A model generated the notes under the pieces. The model made no database searches, had not been told where the DNA came from, and saw only the letters and a program-made list of their open reading frames with translations. DNA of 64,000 nt from Streptococcus sp. 29887 (GTDB taxonomy: Bacteria > Bacillota > Bacilli > Lactobacillales > Streptococcaceae): the NCBI RefSeq assembly GCF_032595075.1, contig NZ_CP118735.1, positions 2,136,001 to 2,200,000 on the forward strand, written 5' to 3'. Below are positions 9,418-62,766 of the stretch, piece by piece; within the stretch, counting starts at the first letter, position 1; every line of letters starts with the position of its first letter. The translations under genes and the position numbers were made by a program.

Positions 9418-9451
9418 AAGGATATTACATTTAGAAAAGAGAGAAGATGTT

Positions 9452-10054
9452 ATGAAACTTCTAGGACTTGTCGGAACCAACTCCGCTCGCTCAACCAACC
9501 GCAAACTCTTGCAGTACATCAAACAGCATTTCGCTGACAAGGCAGATATTGAATTGGTTGAAATCAAGGACCTTCCAGTCTTCAATAAACCGGCTAATCG
9601 TGAACTGCCAGAAAGTGTTAAAGAATTAGTTGCAAAGATTGAAAGTGCTGATGGTGTCATCATCGGAACACCTGAGTATGACCACTCGATCCCCGCTGTT
9701 CTTATGAATGCACTAGCTTGGGTATCATATGGAGTCTACCCTATGCTTAACAAGCCGGTTATGATTACAGGTGCCTCATACGGAACACTCGGTTCTTCCC
9801 GTGCTCAATTGCAACTACGCCAAATTCTCAATGCTCCTGAACTCAAAGCTACTGTTTTACCAGATGAGTTCTTACTATCTAATTCCATGAAAGCCTTTGA
9901 TACAAACGGTGAGCTCATTGATTTAGAAATCAGTCAAAAACTGGATGCCATTTTTGATGACTTCCGTCTCTTTGTCAAGATGACAAGTAAACTGTCTAGC
10001 GCCAAAGAGTTACTTCAAAAAGAAGCTGAAAACTTTGACTGGGAAAACTTGTAA
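9452..10054 (+). CDS. NADPH-dependent FMN reductase family protein
   Basis: This 200-residue flavodoxin-fold protein begins MKLLGLVGTNSARSTNR, a phosphate-binding loop of the FMN_red family. It also contains GTPEYDHSIPAVLMNALAW, the conserved flavin-site block. The start is the ATG at 9452 behind AGAGAGAAG; an upstream in-frame ATG at 9413 lies on the -10 box and is rejected. It is followed after 15 nt by a larger paralogue, so the two are co-transcribed. Such enzymes reduce FMN, quinones or azo compounds; the substrate here is unknown. Confidence 0.85.
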   Translation: MKLLGLVGTNSARSTNRKLLQYIKQHFADKADIELVEIKDLPVFNKPANRELPESVKELVAKIESADGVIIGTPEYDHSIPAVLMNALAWVSYGVYPMLNKPVMITGASYGTLGSSRAQLQLRQILNAPELKATVLPDEFLLSNSMKAFDTNGELIDLEISQKLDAIFDDFRLFVKMTSKLSSAKELLQKEAENFDWENL

Positions 10055-10069
10055 GAGAGGAGAACAATC

Positions 10070-11305
10070 ATGAAATTTGTCGGAATCGTCGGGTCTAATG
10101 CAGACCAATCTTATAACCGCATGCTATTGCAATTTATTCAACGCCACTTTAAAGTAAAATTTGAATTAGAGCTTTTGGAAATCAAAGATGTCCCAATGTT
10201 CAATCAGGACGAAGACCAGTCTAATAGTTTTGCGATCCAATACCTTTACAACAAAATCACACGTGCTGATGGTGTCATCATTGCTACACCTGAGCACAAC
10301 CACACCATCACACCTGCTCTTAAAAGTACTCTAGAGTGGCTCAGTTTCAATTTACATCCATTTGAAAATAAACCAGTTATGATTATCGGGGCTTCTTACT
10401 ACGACCAAGGAACGTCTCGTGCTCAAGTCCACTTGAGAAAAATTTTGGACGCTCCAGGTGTCAATGCCTACACGTTGCCAGGTAATGAATTCCTCCTTGG
10501 TAAAGCGAAAGAAGCTTTTGATGATAAAGGGAACATTATCAATGAAGGGACTGTGAAATTCTTGGAAAGCTGTCTAGACAACTTTATCAAGTATGTCGGC
10601 GTTGTATCTAAATTGAAACAACCCAAGCCAATTGCACCAGAAGATTTAGACTGTAACCATCCAATCGCAACGACCATCACAGGTGTGGATCCAGATGATC
10701 CAGACTGGTTGGAAAAAGCTGCCAAACAGGTCAATGCCGTTGAGGGAAATACCTATGTGAAATTGGACAACGGTCTCCTCACCGTAGACCAACTCAATAT
10801 GTTCCTCAATGCGATGCCATTTGAATTGACCTATGCAGATGATAATAACCAATTCCTCTACTACAACAACAAGCACCAGGAGCCAAATACCATGTTGGGT
10901 AAACGGGTACTTGCTCAAGTAGGAAATCGCCTATCAACTGTCCACGGTACGCTACCTCCTGCCCGCATGAAGAATGTTGAATGGGTTGTCGGTACCTTGC
11001 GTAATGGTAACCAAGAATATGTTCGTACCATTGTACCCGGTACCCCTGCTGAAATTATCAATACCCACAACTACCAAGCTATGTACTATCCTGATGGATC
11101 CTACGCTGGTATCAATGAAATTATCTTTAATTTCAAACCATGGCTAGATTGGTATCTTGAAGCTACTGGTCAACGCTTAGTTGGTGGTTCGGGAACTGCC
11201 GCAGCTCCTGCACATGTTGACGCAACCTCTGGTGCATCAGATGCTGGTAGCGCCCCTGCTACTTCCACACCGACAGATGCAGATTCTGGTGCATCCGCTC
11301 ACTAA
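10070..11305 (+). CDS. FMN reductase fused to a C-terminal PAS domain
   Basis: This is a 411-residue protein. Residues 1-180 repeat the flavodoxin fold of the preceding gene ([30 protein letters not shown]). A linker contains [12 protein letters not shown]. Residues about 235-365 form a PAS domain of the type found in DUF438-like proteins ([48 protein letters not shown]). The last about 40 residues are low-complexity Ala/Ser/Thr/Asp. The PAS domain could hold haem or flavin or sense redox; this is inference. A good AGGAGA precedes the ATG. A terminator follows. Confidence 0.82.
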
Positions 11306-11318
11306 TCGTTCACATATA

Positions 11319-11349
11319 GGTGCTGGGCTTTCTGCCCAGCACCTCTTCT
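11319..11349 (+). terminator. Terminator after the FMN reductase operon
   Basis: GGTGCTGGGC and GCCCAGCACC form a 10-bp perfect stem with a 5-nt loop, followed by TCTTCT. The T tail is weak but the stem is very stable. Confidence 0.75.
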
Positions 11350-11391
11350 CAGAGTTCATGTCAACATCTCAGCGCAGTAGTTGATTGGCTT

Positions 11392-11443
11392 AAACAGTCT
11401 GGGGGACTGTTTAAGGTTGGAGATAGGATTTGCAAAGCAAATC
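11392..11443 (+). repeat. Intergenic hairpin-core-hairpin repeat, copy 1
   Basis: Stem AAACAGTC/GACTGTTT is followed by the core AAGGTTGGAGATAG and a second stem GATTTGC-AAA-GCAAATC. The same architecture recurs at 11490-11543 (inverted), 35961-36012, 49811-49870 and 49902-49961. Confidence 0.75.
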
Positions 11444-11489
11444 ACAGCAGTTCGTTTTTTACACTCCAAATCTAGCCTCTACGACTGGT

Positions 11490-11543
11490 GCGAACAGAGT
11501 TCGCTTCATTTCCAACCTCCAACTGTCTCCCAGACAGTTGGAG
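11490..11543 (-). repeat. Intergenic hairpin-core-hairpin repeat, copy 2 (inverted)
   Basis: Read on the minus strand: a 12-bp stem CTCCAACTGTCT/AGACAGTTGGAG, the core AGGTTGGAAATGAA, then GCGAAC-TCT-GTTCGC. It faces copy 1 about 50 bp away, so the pair could fold together as one large palindrome. Confidence 0.75.
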
Positions 11544-11554
11544 CTGTACGGGGG

Positions 11555-11657
11555 TGGGAGTAAAATAGTCCAGTGGACTATTTTAGCCCGAACCTACTGT
11601 TTGGAAGCGAGGGGAACTCTTTTTAAACTGGTCGAGTTCTTTCCCACTCCCATATTT
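11555..11657 (+). repeat. Large nested inverted repeat ahead of the formate/nitrite channel gene
   Basis: Outer arms TGGGAGT/ACTCCCA enclose an 11-bp perfect hairpin TAAAATAGTCC-AGT-GGACTATTTTA. ATATTTTT follows the outer right arm, so it may also act as a terminator or attenuator. With the terminator at 11319 and copies 1 and 2, it fills the 390-bp gap before the next gene. Confidence 0.6.
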
Positions 11658-11697
11658 TTCAAACAAAACATTGATCATGATTTCACAAGGAGTTCCT

Positions 11698-12492
11698 ATG
11701 TCACCATTTCAAGAAAAAATTTCAGCTGCAGTTTCAAAAAAAGAAGCCCTTTTTGACGAAAGTCTAGGCCGCTATGCCTTGCGTTCTATGTATGCAGGAG
11801 CCTACCTGACTATGTCAACAGCTGTCGGTATTATCGGAGCAGACGTTATTGCCAGTCAATTTCCAAGTTTGTCGCGCTTTGTCTTTACCTTCATCTTTGC
11901 TATTGGGCTGGTTTTTGTTCTTCTTTTTGGTGGTGAATTAGCCACATCTAACATGATGTATCTCACAACTGGTGCCTACTATAAGCAAATTAGCTGGAAA
12001 AAAGTGACACTGATGCTGCTATACTGTACTTTCTTTAACTTTGTAGGCGCTACTATTCTAGCCTGGCTCTTCAATCAGTCCTTCTCCTACCTCAATCTCT
12101 CTGATAAGAGCTTTGTCGTCAATGCCGTTACCATCAAACTTGGAAAATCTGACTGGAGTAATTTTATTGAAGGGATCACGGCTAATATGTTTGTAAATAT
12201 GGCAATCCTTGGCTTCATGCTCATCAAGGAACAGTCTGCTAAGTTCTTTGTCATCATTTCCTCCATTTTTATGTTCGTTTTCCTCATCAATGAGCATCTG
12301 GTCGCCAATTTCGCATCTTTCATGCTCCTAGCTTTTAACGCTACTCGAAGCAATGTCGAAGCCTTCAATATGATCAATATCCTTCGTCAATGGATTGTGG
12401 TCTTTTTTGGAAATTGGCTCGGAGCCGGTCTCTTTATCGGTATCGCCTACGCTTGGCTCAATCAAACCAAAACCAACCATATTGAGCAGTAA
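11698..12492 (+). CDS. Formate/nitrite transporter family channel
   Basis: This 264-residue protein has six hydrophobic segments and the FNT-family block FGGELATSNMMY. FNT proteins are pentameric channels for formate, nitrite, lactate or hydrosulfide; the substrate cannot be told here. The ATG at 11698 with AAGGAG 6 nt upstream is chosen over an in-frame ATG at 11671, which has no Shine-Dalgarno. The gene stands alone, converging on satB across a shared terminator. Confidence 0.85.
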   Translation: MSPFQEKISAAVSKKEALFDESLGRYALRSMYAGAYLTMSTAVGIIGADVIASQFPSLSRFVFTFIFAIGLVFVLLFGGELATSNMMYLTTGAYYKQISWKKVTLMLLYCTFFNFVGATILAWLFNQSFSYLNLSDKSFVVNAVTIKLGKSDWSNFIEGITANMFVNMAILGFMLIKEQSAKFFVIISSIFMFVFLINEHLVANFASFMLLAFNATRSNVEAFNMINILRQWIVVFFGNWLGAGLFIGIAYAWLNQTKTNHIEQ

Positions 12493-12503
12493 GCCTATCA
12501 CAA

Positions 12504-12573
12504 AAACAGCCAAGATAAACCACGTCCTAAACGTTTAAGGATTGTGGTCTGCTTATCTTGGCTGTTTATTTTT
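12504..12573. terminator. Bidirectional terminator between the FNT gene and satB
   Basis: A 15-bp perfect stem AAACAGCCAAGATAA/TTATCTTGGCTGTTT encloses a second imperfect stem (ACCACGTCCT/AGGATTGTGGT). A/T tracts lie on both sides, and the flanking genes converge. Confidence 0.85.
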
Positions 12574-12580
12574 CTATATA

Positions 12581-14365
12581 TTATTCAAACACAAACTGAT
12601 TGTGGTAGAGTTCGGCATAGAAGCCGTTGAGCTTGAGGAGTTGGCTGTGATTGCCTTGTTCAATCACCTTTCCGTCTTTGAGGACGATGATCTCATCCGC
12701 ATTGAGAATGGTTTTGAGGCGGTGGGCAATGACGAAGCTGGTCCGTCCTGCGATAATGGCCTCCATGGCCTTTTGAATTTTGGCTTCCGTTACGGTATCA
12801 ACGTTGGACGTTGCTTCGTCTAAAATCAAGACCTGTGGATCTGTCAAGAGCGTACGGGCAATGGAAATCAACTGTTTCTGACCTGTTGAGAAGACATTCT
12901 CATCATCGGTCACAAAGGTTTCATAGCCCTCTGGCAAGCTCATGATGAAGTCGTGGATATGGGTGGCACGAGCTGCGGTTTCCACCATTTCCTGCGAAAT
13001 GCTCTCATCACCGAAGCGAATATTGTCCGCAATAGTACCCGAGAATAGCACCGACTCCTGCAAAACGATACCGACCTTATCCCGCAAGCTGTCCAAGTCA
13101 TATTCCCGAATATTACGACCATCAAAGGCCACGCTACCACCATTGACATCGTAGAAGCGGTTAATCAAGTTCATAATGGTAGTCTTACCAGACCCCGTCG
13201 GACCAACGACCGCCACCATTTTGCCCTTAGGAGCAGAGATAGATACCTTGTCCAAGACCTTCTGACCTGGCAGGTAGCCAAAGTCAATGTCCTTGATTTC
13301 AACACCTTCTTTTAATTCGGTAAATAGCGGAGCGTTTTGAGGGCGAACTTCCTCAGGCTCATCAAACATTTCCTGAATACGATGAGCTCCTGTAAAAGCT
13401 AGCTGCAATTCTGCCCAGCTGGCAGCAACCTGCATGATTGGCTGGTAATACTGTTGCGAATACTGAACAAAGGTCACCACCAGACCAAGTGCGGCAGCTG
13501 TTTCCAGCGAGCTATCATTGAGAACAATGCTGGAGCCTGCAAAGATAACAATGGCAGTATTAACCAGGCTCATTCCGTTCATAAATGGGAAGAGAATCCC
13601 ACCAAACAAGCGTCCCTTAAAGGTTGTGCGACGAACTTCTTCATTGAGTTCTAAGAAACCATCAATCGTCTCTTCCTGCACACCCTGTACAATAATCGCT
13701 TTTTGTCCAGAAATTTTCTCGTCCATGTAGGCATTGAGCTTAGATACCGCAGCCTGTTGCTTATCCGTATATTTCCGTGATAGGCGGATGATAAGGACCA
13801 AGGCAATCAAGGCAACTGGCGTAGAAGCAATGGTCACCAAGGCCAAGCGAGTATCCTGACGGAACATCATGATGACCATACCAATATAAAGAGCAATGTT
13901 GGTCACTACCTGGGTCAAAGACTGGTTAAAAGCATTTTGGATATTATCCAAATCACTGGTAAAGCGAGAAAGAATATCCCCGTCCTTGTGACTATCAAAG
14001 AAGGCAACTGTCAAACGTTCCAGTTTGCCAAACAAGCCCTTACGCATACGGTTGGTCGAATGAGCCACGATGCGCGTGAAGAGGAGGGTGTAAATCAAGG
14101 TTGCCACGACCGTCGCCGCATAGGCAAAGAAAAGATCGAGCATAACCCCGTTAAAATCAGACAGGTCAGGTTTGAAATCTGACTGACCCATTTGCACCGA
14201 AGCAAAGTAAGCTTGCCCGATTTTCCCCATCTCCGCAATGGCATTTCCAAGGAAAACAGGTGTCTTAACCTGCAAGTAGGTCGCTGTCACAATGGCTAGA
14301 AAAATCACAGCAAAGGACAGTTTATAGCGTTTAAAATAAAACCAGAAAAAACGTAACGTCTTCAT
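12581..14365 (-). CDS. satB: ABC multidrug exporter half-transporter, catalytic-site subunit (SatB type)
   Basis: This 594-residue protein has an N-terminal six-helix exporter domain and a C-terminal ATPase. The ATPase has Walker A GPTGSGKT, a degenerate signature FSTGQ (normally SGGQ), canonical Walker B LILDEATS with its catalytic Glu, and an intact H-loop AHRL. With the upstream partner it shows the asymmetric pattern of heterodimeric exporters such as LmrCD and PatAB. The S. suis equivalent, SatAB, exports fluoroquinolones (established for the family; assigned here by context and similarity remembered, not searched). It directly abuts satA without spacing. Confidence 0.82.
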
Positions 14366-59990: not shown

Positions 59991-60650
59991 ATGACACCAA
60001 ACAAAGAAGATTACCTGAAAGTCATTTACGAACTAGGGCAGACAGAACAGAAAATCACCAATAAGCAGATTGCTGAAAAGATGAATTTTTCCGCCCCAGC
60101 CGTTTCCGAAATGCTGAAAAAAATGGTCACGGAAGAGCTGATTGAAAAAGATAAAGCAGCAGGTTACATCCTCAGCCAAGTCGCCTTGGAAATGGTAGCC
60201 AACCTCTACCGCAAGCACCGCCTGATAGAAGTCTTTTTAGTTGAACAGCTGGGCTATTCCCCTGAACAAGTCCATGAAGAAGCTGAAATTTTAGAACACA
60301 CCGTTTCAGACCATTTTATCAACCAACTGGACAAACTGCTGGGCTATCCCCAAACCTGCCCACACGGTGGCAGCATTCCTAAAGAAAACCAGTTGCTTGT
60401 AGAACGCTACCAGACCCGGCTGTCCCAACTGACCGAAACCGGCAACTACCAACTGGTTCGTATCCATGATTTCTACCAGCTCCTCCAATACCTGGAACAA
60501 CATGAGTTAACTGTCGGCGATCAACTACTTGTGACAGCCTTCGACCAGTTTGCCCAGACCATCACCATCCAGTACAAGGACAAAGAACTGGCCATACCTG
60601 TAACCATCGCCCAAGAATTATTCGTAGAAAAAGCCAATCGCCCAGCCTAA
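59991..60650 (+). CDS. troR: DtxR/MntR family metalloregulator, divergent from troA
   Basis: This 219-residue protein has an N-terminal winged helix (NKQIAEKMNFSAPAVSEMLK, about 24-43), a dimerisation/metal domain (HRLIEVFLVEQLGYSPEQVHEEAEILEHTVS, 76-106, with the His and Glu ligands) and an SH3-like FeoA-type C-terminal domain. It is divergent from troA across a 126-bp gap with one clear palindrome, so manganese- or iron-dependent repression of troABCD is likely. A TG-extended TATACT at about 59960 may be its promoter. Confidence 0.87.
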   Translation: MTPNKEDYLKVIYELGQTEQKITNKQIAEKMNFSAPAVSEMLKKMVTEELIEKDKAAGYILSQVALEMVANLYRKHRLIEVFLVEQLGYSPEQVHEEAEILEHTVSDHFINQLDKLLGYPQTCPHGGSIPKENQLLVERYQTRLSQLTETGNYQLVRIHDFYQLLQYLEQHELTVGDQLLVTAFDQFAQTITIQYKDKELAIPVTIAQELFVEKANRPA

Positions 60651-60665
60651 TAAGCTGAGCGATTA
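60634..60665. repeat. 32-bp direct repeat, left copy (troR 3' end and terminator)
   Basis: CCAATCGCCCAGCC...GCTGAGCGATTA spans the last troR codons, the stop and the hairpin AATCGCCCAGC/GCTGAGCGATT. An identical copy lies at 62365-62396. Confidence 0.9.
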
Positions 60666-60728
60666 GTTTTGTTTAGTAAAAAAAGAGAGGAATGCCGAAT
60701 CAAAATCTAAAGGAAAAGGAAAAAGAAG

Positions 60729-61169
60729 ATGAAAAAGAAAATACTTGTTGCACTAATCCTAACCTTCATAAGCCTCCTGCTTTGGGGGATTGGAAAGCTG
60801 TATATCGCATATAATCTATCTCACTACGCAGGGTACTATGTCCAGCACATGCCTCGGAAAGAGGGGATGAATCCAGAATTAGTCATCATTTTAACTCATC
60901 TGGACAGTATTGAAAGACCAGAAGTAAACGGACTTACTTATAACTTAAGGGGAAATGGTGGTATCATAAAAGATGATAGTTTTTACCTTTTTGATGTGTC
61001 GGATGAATTTCAACTGACTATATCAGATGAAGATGGAGACTACTTCTTTAACCATGATAACGGTGAATTTTTGTATTATTACACTGATGATATCGACAAT
61101 ACAAATTCTGACACGCAATATCAAAAAGAGGCGGAATTACTTCTCGATAAAATCTTGCCCCTATCCTAG
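60729..61169 (+). pseudogene. Tandem paralogue 1, C-terminally truncated by a 1-bp frameshift
   Basis: This 146-residue product has an N-terminal hydrophobic anchor (residues 4-25, LVALILTFISLLLWGIGKLY) and an extracellular domain. Compared with paralogues 2 and 3, a C is missing in the run GCCCC(C)TATC at about 61159. The frame therefore ends at ILPLS instead of ILPPIL. The lost tail (QPKPKINLQ...KQFNE) is still encoded down to 61243. AAGGAAAAAGAAG serves as Shine-Dalgarno. No family is recognised. Confidence 0.75.
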
Positions 61170-61235
61170 AAGCGCAACCCAAACCAAAAATAAACCTTCA
61201 AAATCTATTTAACGACAAATACTACAAACAGTTTA

Positions 61236-61760
61236 ATGAATAAGCTATCTATGAAAAAGAAATTACTTGTTGCCCTTATCCTAACCTTCATAAGCCTCCT
61301 GCTTTGGGGGATTGGAAAGCTGTATATCGCATATAATCTATCTCACTACGCAGGGTACTATGTCCAGCACATGCCTCGGAAAGAGGGGACCAATCCTGAG
61401 TTGGTCATCATTTTAACTCATTTGGACAGTATTGAAAGACCGACAACTAATAAATTATCCTATGACCTTGATGGGAATAGTACAATTTTACTAAATAATT
61501 CTATAATATTAAGTAATGGTCCCTACATTCGTATTTGGAATTATACAGAAAATAAAAAATATATTTTCCATAATTTCGGTAGTTATTCTTATTATTACAC
61601 TGATGATATAGACCAAAAAAAATATGATTCACAATATCAAAAAGAGGCGGAATTACTCCTCAATAAAATCCTGCCCCCTATCTTAAAAGCACAACCCAAA
61701 CCAAAAATAAACCTTCAAAAACTATTTAACGACAAATACTACAAACAGTTTAATGAATAA
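61236..61760 (+). CDS. Tandem paralogue 2, small membrane-anchored protein
   Basis: This is a 174-residue protein (169 if the second Met, at 61251, is used). The first about 64 residues after MKKK, including the single membrane helix and YVQHMPRKEGTNPELVI, and the last about 40 are almost identical to paralogue 3. Residues about 70-130 are diverged. The start ATGAATAA overlaps the ancestral stop of paralogue 1, which suggests translational coupling. There is no Shine-Dalgarno of its own. Function is unknown; an immunity, antigenic or envelope role is possible. Confidence 0.7.
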   Translation: MNKLSMKKKLLVALILTFISLLLWGIGKLYIAYNLSHYAGYYVQHMPRKEGTNPELVIILTHLDSIERPTTNKLSYDLDGNSTILLNNSIILSNGPYIRIWNYTENKKYIFHNFGSYSYYYTDDIDQKKYDSQYQKEAELLLNKILPPILKAQPKPKINLQKLFNDKYYKQFNE

Positions 61761-62286
61761 GCTATCTATGAAAAAGAAATTACTTGTTGCCCTTATCCTA
61801 ACCTTCATAAGCCTCCTGCTTTGGGGGATCGGAAAGCTGTATATCGCATATAATCTCTCACACTATGCAGGGTACTATGTCCAACACATGCCCCGGAAAG
61901 AGGGGACCAATCCTGAGTTGGTCATCATTTTAACTCATTTGGACAGTATTGAAAGACCTTCGACCAATAACTTATCCTACGACCTTGATGGGAATGGTGC
62001 AATTATTGTAGATAATCAATTAATTCTTTCTTACAGGACAGATATGTTTAATTTATATCCAACAGAAGGTACTGAAAATTATATATTAGATGTCAAAAAT
62101 GGATCATTTCTCTATCATGTCAAAAATCTTAATTTTCAAGAAAAGGATAATAGTAAACCCAAGGAGCTAGAAGCCGAAAAACTTCTCAATAAAATCCTGC
62201 CCCCTATCTTAGAAGCGCAACCTAAACCTAAAATCAACCTTCAAAAACTATTTAACGACAAATACTACAAACAGTTTAATGAATAA
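61753..62286 (+). CDS. Tandem paralogue 3, small membrane-anchored protein
   Basis: This 177-residue protein has the same design as paralogue 2: a hydrophobic N-terminal anchor, a diverged central domain (about 70-133 after the second Met) and a conserved Pro/Lys-rich tail ending KQFNE. Its ATG overlaps the stop of paralogue 2 (ATGAATAA). The unit length is about 517-522 bp for each copy. After it, 78 bp lead to the right copy of the 32-bp repeat. Confidence 0.7.
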   Translation: MNKLSMKKKLLVALILTFISLLLWGIGKLYIAYNLSHYAGYYVQHMPRKEGTNPELVIILTHLDSIERPSTNNLSYDLDGNGAIIVDNQLILSYRTDMFNLYPTEGTENYILDVKNGSFLYHVKNLNFQEKDNSKPKELEAEKLLNKILPPILEAQPKPKINLQKLFNDKYYKQFNE

Positions 62287-62364
62287 GCATGCAGTTAAAA
62301 TCAGGTATAGAGGGCTATTTTTGCTGTTCATTGAGTATCAAATCTCCTCTATTCTCTTTCAAAA

Positions 62365-62396
62365 CCAATCGCCCAGCCTAATAAGCTGAGCGATTA
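62365..62396. repeat. 32-bp direct repeat, right copy
   Basis: Identical to 60634-60665. Here it acts as a bidirectional terminator between the tandem array and the convergent small membrane protein gene, whose TAA is its last three bases. Confidence 0.9.
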
Positions 62397-62669
62397 TTTT
62401 TTCTTCCAATTGCGGAAAATGGATCTGGTTGCAAAAAACACTTGCCCTAGGATATATACCAAACCCAAAAAAGAACCTAGATAAAAACAGCCCAAGAGAA
62501 AGAAAGGGTTATAGGTCAAGGGCTGGATGATAAACATGAACACGAGCACCAAGCCCCACCGCATGCCCCAGGTCATCTTTCTCTGAATCAACCATTCCAG
62601 CCTATCTTCTCCAACTGAACTTCTGGTTTCCAGATATTCTTGATTGAGGTCTTGAAAAAATTTTCTCAT
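62394..62669 (-). CDS. Small two-span membrane protein
   Basis: This 91-residue protein has a charged N-terminus (RKFFQDLNQEYLETRSS) and two hydrophobic helices (about 36-54 and 58-78), with a basic C-terminus. The start taken is the ATG at 62669 with GAGGTG upstream; a GTG four codons earlier is an alternative. No family is recognised. Confidence 0.6.
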   Translation of the reverse strand: MRKFFQDLNQEYLETRSSVGEDRLEWLIQRKMTWGMRWGLVLVFMFIIQPLTYNPFFLLGCFYLGSFLGLVYILGQVFFATRSIFRNWKKK

Positions 62670-62766
62670 ATTTCTGCCCACCTCTGCACTTGATAGTTAG
62701 CAATTATAAAATTGCCAACCTCCTCTTAGTATATAGGCATTTCCCCCAAATATCTACTGTTAATGT

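Follow-up and report, generated by a model that had tools for sequence, protein, structure and literature searches.

The 64,000-nt window analysed here (Streptococcus sp. 29887, contig NZ_CP118735.1, positions 2,136,001 to 2,200,000) encompasses a tandem array of three units of about 515 bp each (60729–62286), which are constant at their ends and strongly diverged in their centres. What do the encoded small proteins do, and which process keeps the ends alike and the centres different? An earlier note on this DNA, made from the sequence alone, had suggested a membrane-anchored antigenic or immunity family in which recombination or gene conversion maintains the ends. With a probability of roughly 0.83, we take the window array to be an orphan array of a new family of membrane-anchored immunity proteins directed against TelC-like toxins carried by GbpC-type proteins.

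The array lies where the earlier note had placed it, on the plus strand, with a spacing of 522 and 517 nt between the units. Unit 1 is preceded by a purine-rich ribosome-binding region (60714–60728), recognised by eye, with a near-identical leader in Streptococcus suis DE406T (G117) and S. suis 2187 (G278). The ORF of unit 1 starts at 60729, and a frameshift near codon 143, not mentioned in the earlier note, truncates it to 146 aa (60729–61169) according to the ORF list and the comparison of frames; the leftover constant 3' part, recognised by its match to residues 149–177, sits in another frame (61154–61243). Units 2 and 3 are open and encode candidate membrane-anchored immunity proteins of 174 aa (61236–61760) and 177 aa (61753–62286), counted from the outer starts at 61236 and 61753; inner ATG codons are found at 61251 and 61768, respectively, and units 2 and 3 overlap by 8 nt when unit 3 is read from its outer start. 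A promoter scan detected promoter-like sites around the orphan array only at the background level and none before unit 1.

The contrast between ends and centre, inferred earlier from inspection, is fully borne out by codon-based alignment of the three units (W1, W2 and W3). Nucleotide identity is 0.92–0.97 in the 5' block (62 codons), compared with 0.48–0.56 in the centre (60915–61124 in unit 1, as delimited by block identities; 61437–61640 in unit 2; 61954–62166 in unit 3). In the 3' block, units 2 and 3 are 0.90 identical over 39 codons, and unit 1, with only 11 comparable codons, shows identities of 0.91 to unit 2 and 0.76 to unit 3; 40-nt windows at the DNA level give 0.88–1.00 from alignment position 440 onward. 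Differing sites are concentrated in the centre in all pairs, namely, 92/204 in the centre against 12/219 in the ends for W1/W2 (Fisher p=1.6e-22), 110/210 against 23/219 for W1/W3 (p=8.9e-22), and 90/204 against 18/303 for W2/W3 (p=3.5e-25), and their clustering reached the floor of the permutation test (p=1e-4). In the AlphaFold2 model of unit 3 (mean pLDDT 92.9), the constant 5' block (61768–61953) forms a predicted membrane helix (residues 3–37) followed by helices, the variable centre a predicted beta-sheet (six strands between residues 74 and 123), and the constant 3' block (62167–62286) the C-terminal helices.

The array is an insert between two copies of a 41-nt direct repeat on the plus strand that are 95% identical; the earlier note does not mention this repeat. 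Copy 1 (60630–60670) consists of the 3' end of the upstream iron/manganese-repressor-type regulator gene (iron-dependent-repressor type, Pfam PF02742, PF01325, FeoA) and a terminator-like hairpin, and copy 2 (62361–62401) lies at the far end of the insert; the hairpin scan flags copy 1 only, on the minus strand. The 32-nt repeat core occurs exactly twice in the genome when up to 3 mismatches are allowed. Four related genomes (G014, G016, G022 and G006) have an empty site with a single repeat copy and no array there, and G006 carries an array elsewhere in the genome. Between the same flanks, DE406T contains two units and 2187 contains one, so that copy number at this one site is 3, 2 or 1 in three S. 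suis-group genomes, the window's genome being placed in that group by these close relatives; the centre of the 2187 unit is 0.97 identical to that of window unit 2 and belongs to the same type. The insert separates the regulator gene from a convergent gene for a small uncharacterised protein (62394–62681, minus strand), which has a distant paralogue in the same genome and in some relatives.

Using Pfam, NCBIfam, PHROG and PADLOC models, we obtained no meaningful score for the window family, in agreement with the earlier failure to recognise a known one, and a search of the literature, mostly without subscription papers, found no published name for it. The genome contains a second three-unit array (L036:7817–9366; units B1, B2 and B3), in which B1 sits beside a toxin-type gene. 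This gene is a 1215-aa ORF (L036:4173–7820) directly upstream of the array, which it overlaps by 4 nt; its start appears, by eye, signal-peptide-like, it contains a GbpC domain (PF08363, E 6.3e-30) and matches antigen I/II structures by sequence, its C-terminal domain matched no family, and the last 120 residues of its tail include 44 K/R and zero D/E. The toxin-type domain has one match in this genome, at L036 only, and no toxin-type gene adjoins the window array. Among eight partner ORFs scanned, GbpC is present in five, MucBP in one (L055), and neither in the two shortest, and an LPXTG-like motif is absent from all 12 toxin-type ORFs tested. In strain HCJ31, a three-unit array lies between the same neighbour genes as at L036, one of which reads by eye as alanine dehydrogenase, and the toxin is missing.

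The C-terminal domain of the partner has a TelC-like predicted fold. According to excerpts of PMC12419801, the TelC-type signature consists of an active-site aspartate, another aspartate six positions downstream and a C-terminal arginine, and the partner domain carries this lipocone signature as D194, D200 and R232, invariant in 17 of 17 sequences (A5 alignment), the alignment with TelC suggesting which of them is the active-site aspartate. Profile comparison with TelC by hhalign gave a weak match (E 0.0021, probability 13.4%), the partner domain profile (A4) matched no PDB sequence, and TelC was absent among the best 50 Foldseek matches for the domain. The same excerpts describe prok-TelC lipocone toxins, predicted in 2025, that are joined to GbpC and MucBP domains; the partner here has the same kind of architecture, with a C-terminal TelC-like predicted fold. 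For GbpC-TelC toxins, these excerpts name no immunity family. We infer that the partner protein is a toxin.

Across 284 genomes of the genus, the family was found in 40 and the toxin-type domain in 17, all 17 within those 40 (Fisher p=1e-16). The 21 domain matches fall into 20 loci, in 17 of which a family member is next on the same strand; the remaining three end at a contig border and are not testable. Genes adjacent to family members supplied the first sequences of the domain profile, which biases these linkage counts in part. In G175, however, the domain came to light before any family gene: the single-protein family search had been negative there, and a family gene next to the domain was recovered by the later profile search. 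Two of the 17 linked loci (L053:7188–7731 and L060:8074–8805) hold the toxin-type ORF as fragments only, with family genes still next. Behind a toxin-type ORF of 447 aa, far shorter at the front than the other full ORFs, L043:3345–8013 contains six different units. A subclass of 224–226 aa (L038:3715–5207, L041:7644–8324, L042:10051–11933, L059:6403–7077) shows, by eye, a further hydrophobic stretch beyond the constant tail, which suggests a second membrane helix; at L042, this form alternates with the short form.

Divergence of the toxin domain correlates with that of the first neighbouring family member (Mantel r 0.88, 0.83 and 0.69 in 15, 12 and 9 pairs, respectively), a relationship that joint inheritance could also yield. 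The carrier and the domain can diverge separately: L046 and L061 agree to 74% over 562 aa of the carrier and to 24% in the domain, and L036 and L110 to 53% and 25%, respectively; L165 and L055 have little carrier sequence in common with the other seven and domain values of 30–46%. Carrier and domain are both alike in L057/L166 and L165/L055, 2 of the 36 pairs, and the rest show smaller contrasts or none. Judged by these sequence comparisons, the mismatch between carrier and tip in part of the pairs is polymorphic-toxin behaviour.

The same linkage could be read as the association of an accessory factor, such as an anchor, chaperone or export helper, with the upstream GbpC-type surface protein: a unit is the next gene at every testable locus, the two genes overlap by 4 nt at the toxin stop in 6 of 15 pairs, and many export helpers have a membrane anchor like the one predicted here. 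We consider this very unlikely, given that up to seven diverse copies occur in a row and that a helper would need neither orphan arrays nor many alleles of a centre that varies between constant ends. Copies also occur in 23 genomes in which the toxin domain was not detected, six of which (G208, G190, G214, G041, G254 and G264) have short family pieces only; in drafts, the partner may be missed, and these 23 genomes would fit orphan immunity and would fit another function too.

A second alternative, which we regard as very unlikely, is that the units are genuinely related to TipC and counter LXG-TelC toxins exported by the type VII secretion system (T7SS). As presented in excerpts of PMC9484751, tipC arrays resemble the window array in their tandem paralogues, conserved 5' and 3' blocks, variable centre, recombination and orphan copies, and TipC itself is a membrane-anchored extracytoplasmic immunity protein against a TelC-type toxin (PMC9484751, PMC6193138, both in part), which is the role that we propose by analogy. 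A weak polo-box resemblance was observed for the predicted model of the family and is reported for TipC2 (excerpts of PMC6193138). The partner of the window family differs from that of TipC, however: instead of an LXG substrate of the T7SS, it is a protein of the GbpC/antigen-I/II type whose start resembles a signal peptide and whose tail is basic. Nor does the family have a detectable sequence relation to TipC: the TipC model NF033863 matched nothing in this genome, both arrays included, at E up to 1, and the two profiles align with an hhalign probability of 4.3%. In other streptococci of the genus sample, the TipC model has up to nine matches per genome, in arrays preceded by an ORF whose C-terminal part aligns with TelC (L111:3400–10900, L112).

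The esaG arrays of Staphylococcus aureus likewise consist of several non-identical immunity genes in a row that are reshuffled by way of conserved blocks, with the difference that EsaG is another protein and counters a nuclease toxin (PMC9484751, in the excerpts cited). The features of such arrays, that is, conserved terminal blocks, a variable centre, exchange between paralogues and, at some loci, linkage to a toxin-type gene, are all found here. By these analogies, the array type is already known in kind; the presumed immunity family appears new by sequence.

The antigenic half of the earlier suggestion, that is, surface antigens varied to escape the host immune system, accords in outline with constant ends and a variable exposed centre and is nevertheless highly improbable in view of the linkage to toxin-type genes, the correlated divergence of family and toxin, and the small, discrete and common set of centre types described below. 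The same linkage favours the immunity half, as does the predicted TelC-like fold of the partner.

Synonymous divergence bears on the origin of the pattern. Among the window units, the 5' block has a dS of 0.16–0.39, and the 3' block gives 0.36, 0.59 and 0.39 (over 11, 11 and 39 codons); the centre reaches 1.43 and 0.91 in two pairs and is not estimable in the third. With dS smaller at both ends than in the centre, the ends are homogenised beyond what protein constraint alone would bring about. That strong functional constraint alone, without recombination, conserved the ends is hardly credible against this difference and the recurrence of the same centre type in different end contexts (B3 and G117_2; B2 and units of G006), even with ends that encode the predicted membrane helix and the conserved C-terminal helices and a 3' block dS that is only moderately low. 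Homogenisation of the unit ends by recombination, as proposed earlier, is thus supported by sequence comparison, most clearly for the 5' block, with the varying copy number pointing the same way. The centre dN is 0.59–0.70 and dN/dS (NG86) is below 1 in every estimable listed pair, with dS near saturation, so that the centre, previously viewed as diversified, shows no net positive selection.

A reversed pattern also occurs: between unit 3 and G117 unit 1, dS is 0.076 in the centre and 0.254 in the 5' block. The site counts for this pattern are weak (p=0.17 for this pair, 0.079 for B3/G117_2, 0.012 for B3/G172_3 and 0.0041 for G172_2/G172_3).

Comparison of the central alleles across strains and sites showed how widely they are held in common. 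When grouped at 90% nucleotide identity, the 22 close units from six sources (this genome, DE406T, HCJ31, the G006 MAG, 2187 and OP662532.1; more distant units were left out) yield eight centre types. Seven of them are present in at least two sources, and only the type of B1, beside the toxin gene of this genome, is confined to one. The type of window unit 1 is common to units 1 and 4 of YS34, so that open relatives of this interrupted unit exist in OP662532.1; that of unit 3 recurs in G117 unit 1 and YS34 unit 6. The centres of B3 and G117_2 are 0.97 identical, and B2 matches the more distant G006 units at 0.94 in the centre and 0.83–0.86 in the 5' block. Since centre types are common to strains, recombination therefore seems to shuffle recognition modules.

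Arrays occupy three sites: the regulator site, the alanine-dehydrogenase site and a pgmA site. The last is represented by OP662532.1, listed as an S. suis phage with pgmA at its end, which contains seven units and a remnant toxin ORF with matched start and tail and an unmatched toxin domain. In the corresponding segment (L179; OP662532.1 75902–90936, Streptococcus phage YS34-rum), the array spans locus positions 9419–13051 beside pgmA and is annotated only as hypothetical proteins, with the GbpC-type toxin ORF remnant upstream. Because the OP662532.1 and HCJ31 arrays lack the toxin domain, arrays outlive the toxin or travel without it.

Under the immunity reading, each protein would be anchored by its N-terminal membrane helix and expose a small alpha/beta domain on the outer side of the membrane. 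The variable beta-sheet of this domain would bind and block the tip of a secreted polymorphic toxin of the GbpC/antigen-I/II type; that tip, a TelC-like enzyme, would be expected to degrade lipid II. TelC was reported to be harmless to its producer when exported by the T7SS and toxic when sent through Sec (excerpts of PMC6193138). A Sec-type toxin of the TelC fold should therefore require permanent protection of its producer, and this would account for toxin and immunity genes that overlap or adjoin. The toxin-linked copies would protect the producer, and the orphan window array would protect against toxins that neighbours release; centre modules would be gained, lost and exchanged as the constant ends undergo unequal recombination and gene conversion.

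More tentatively, S. suis and its relatives might possess a common library of interchangeable immunity modules against GbpC-TelC toxins, in which the constant ends would serve as recombination handles, discrete centres would be swapped between units, sites and strains, and orphan arrays would be an updatable memory of toxins met. The family is a candidate antidote for the toxin class predicted in 2025, and its centre types offer a natural set for testing how immunity specificity is encoded and exchanged. If the immunity reading is true, a second protein family would stand beside TipC, either as a convergent family or as a distant relative.
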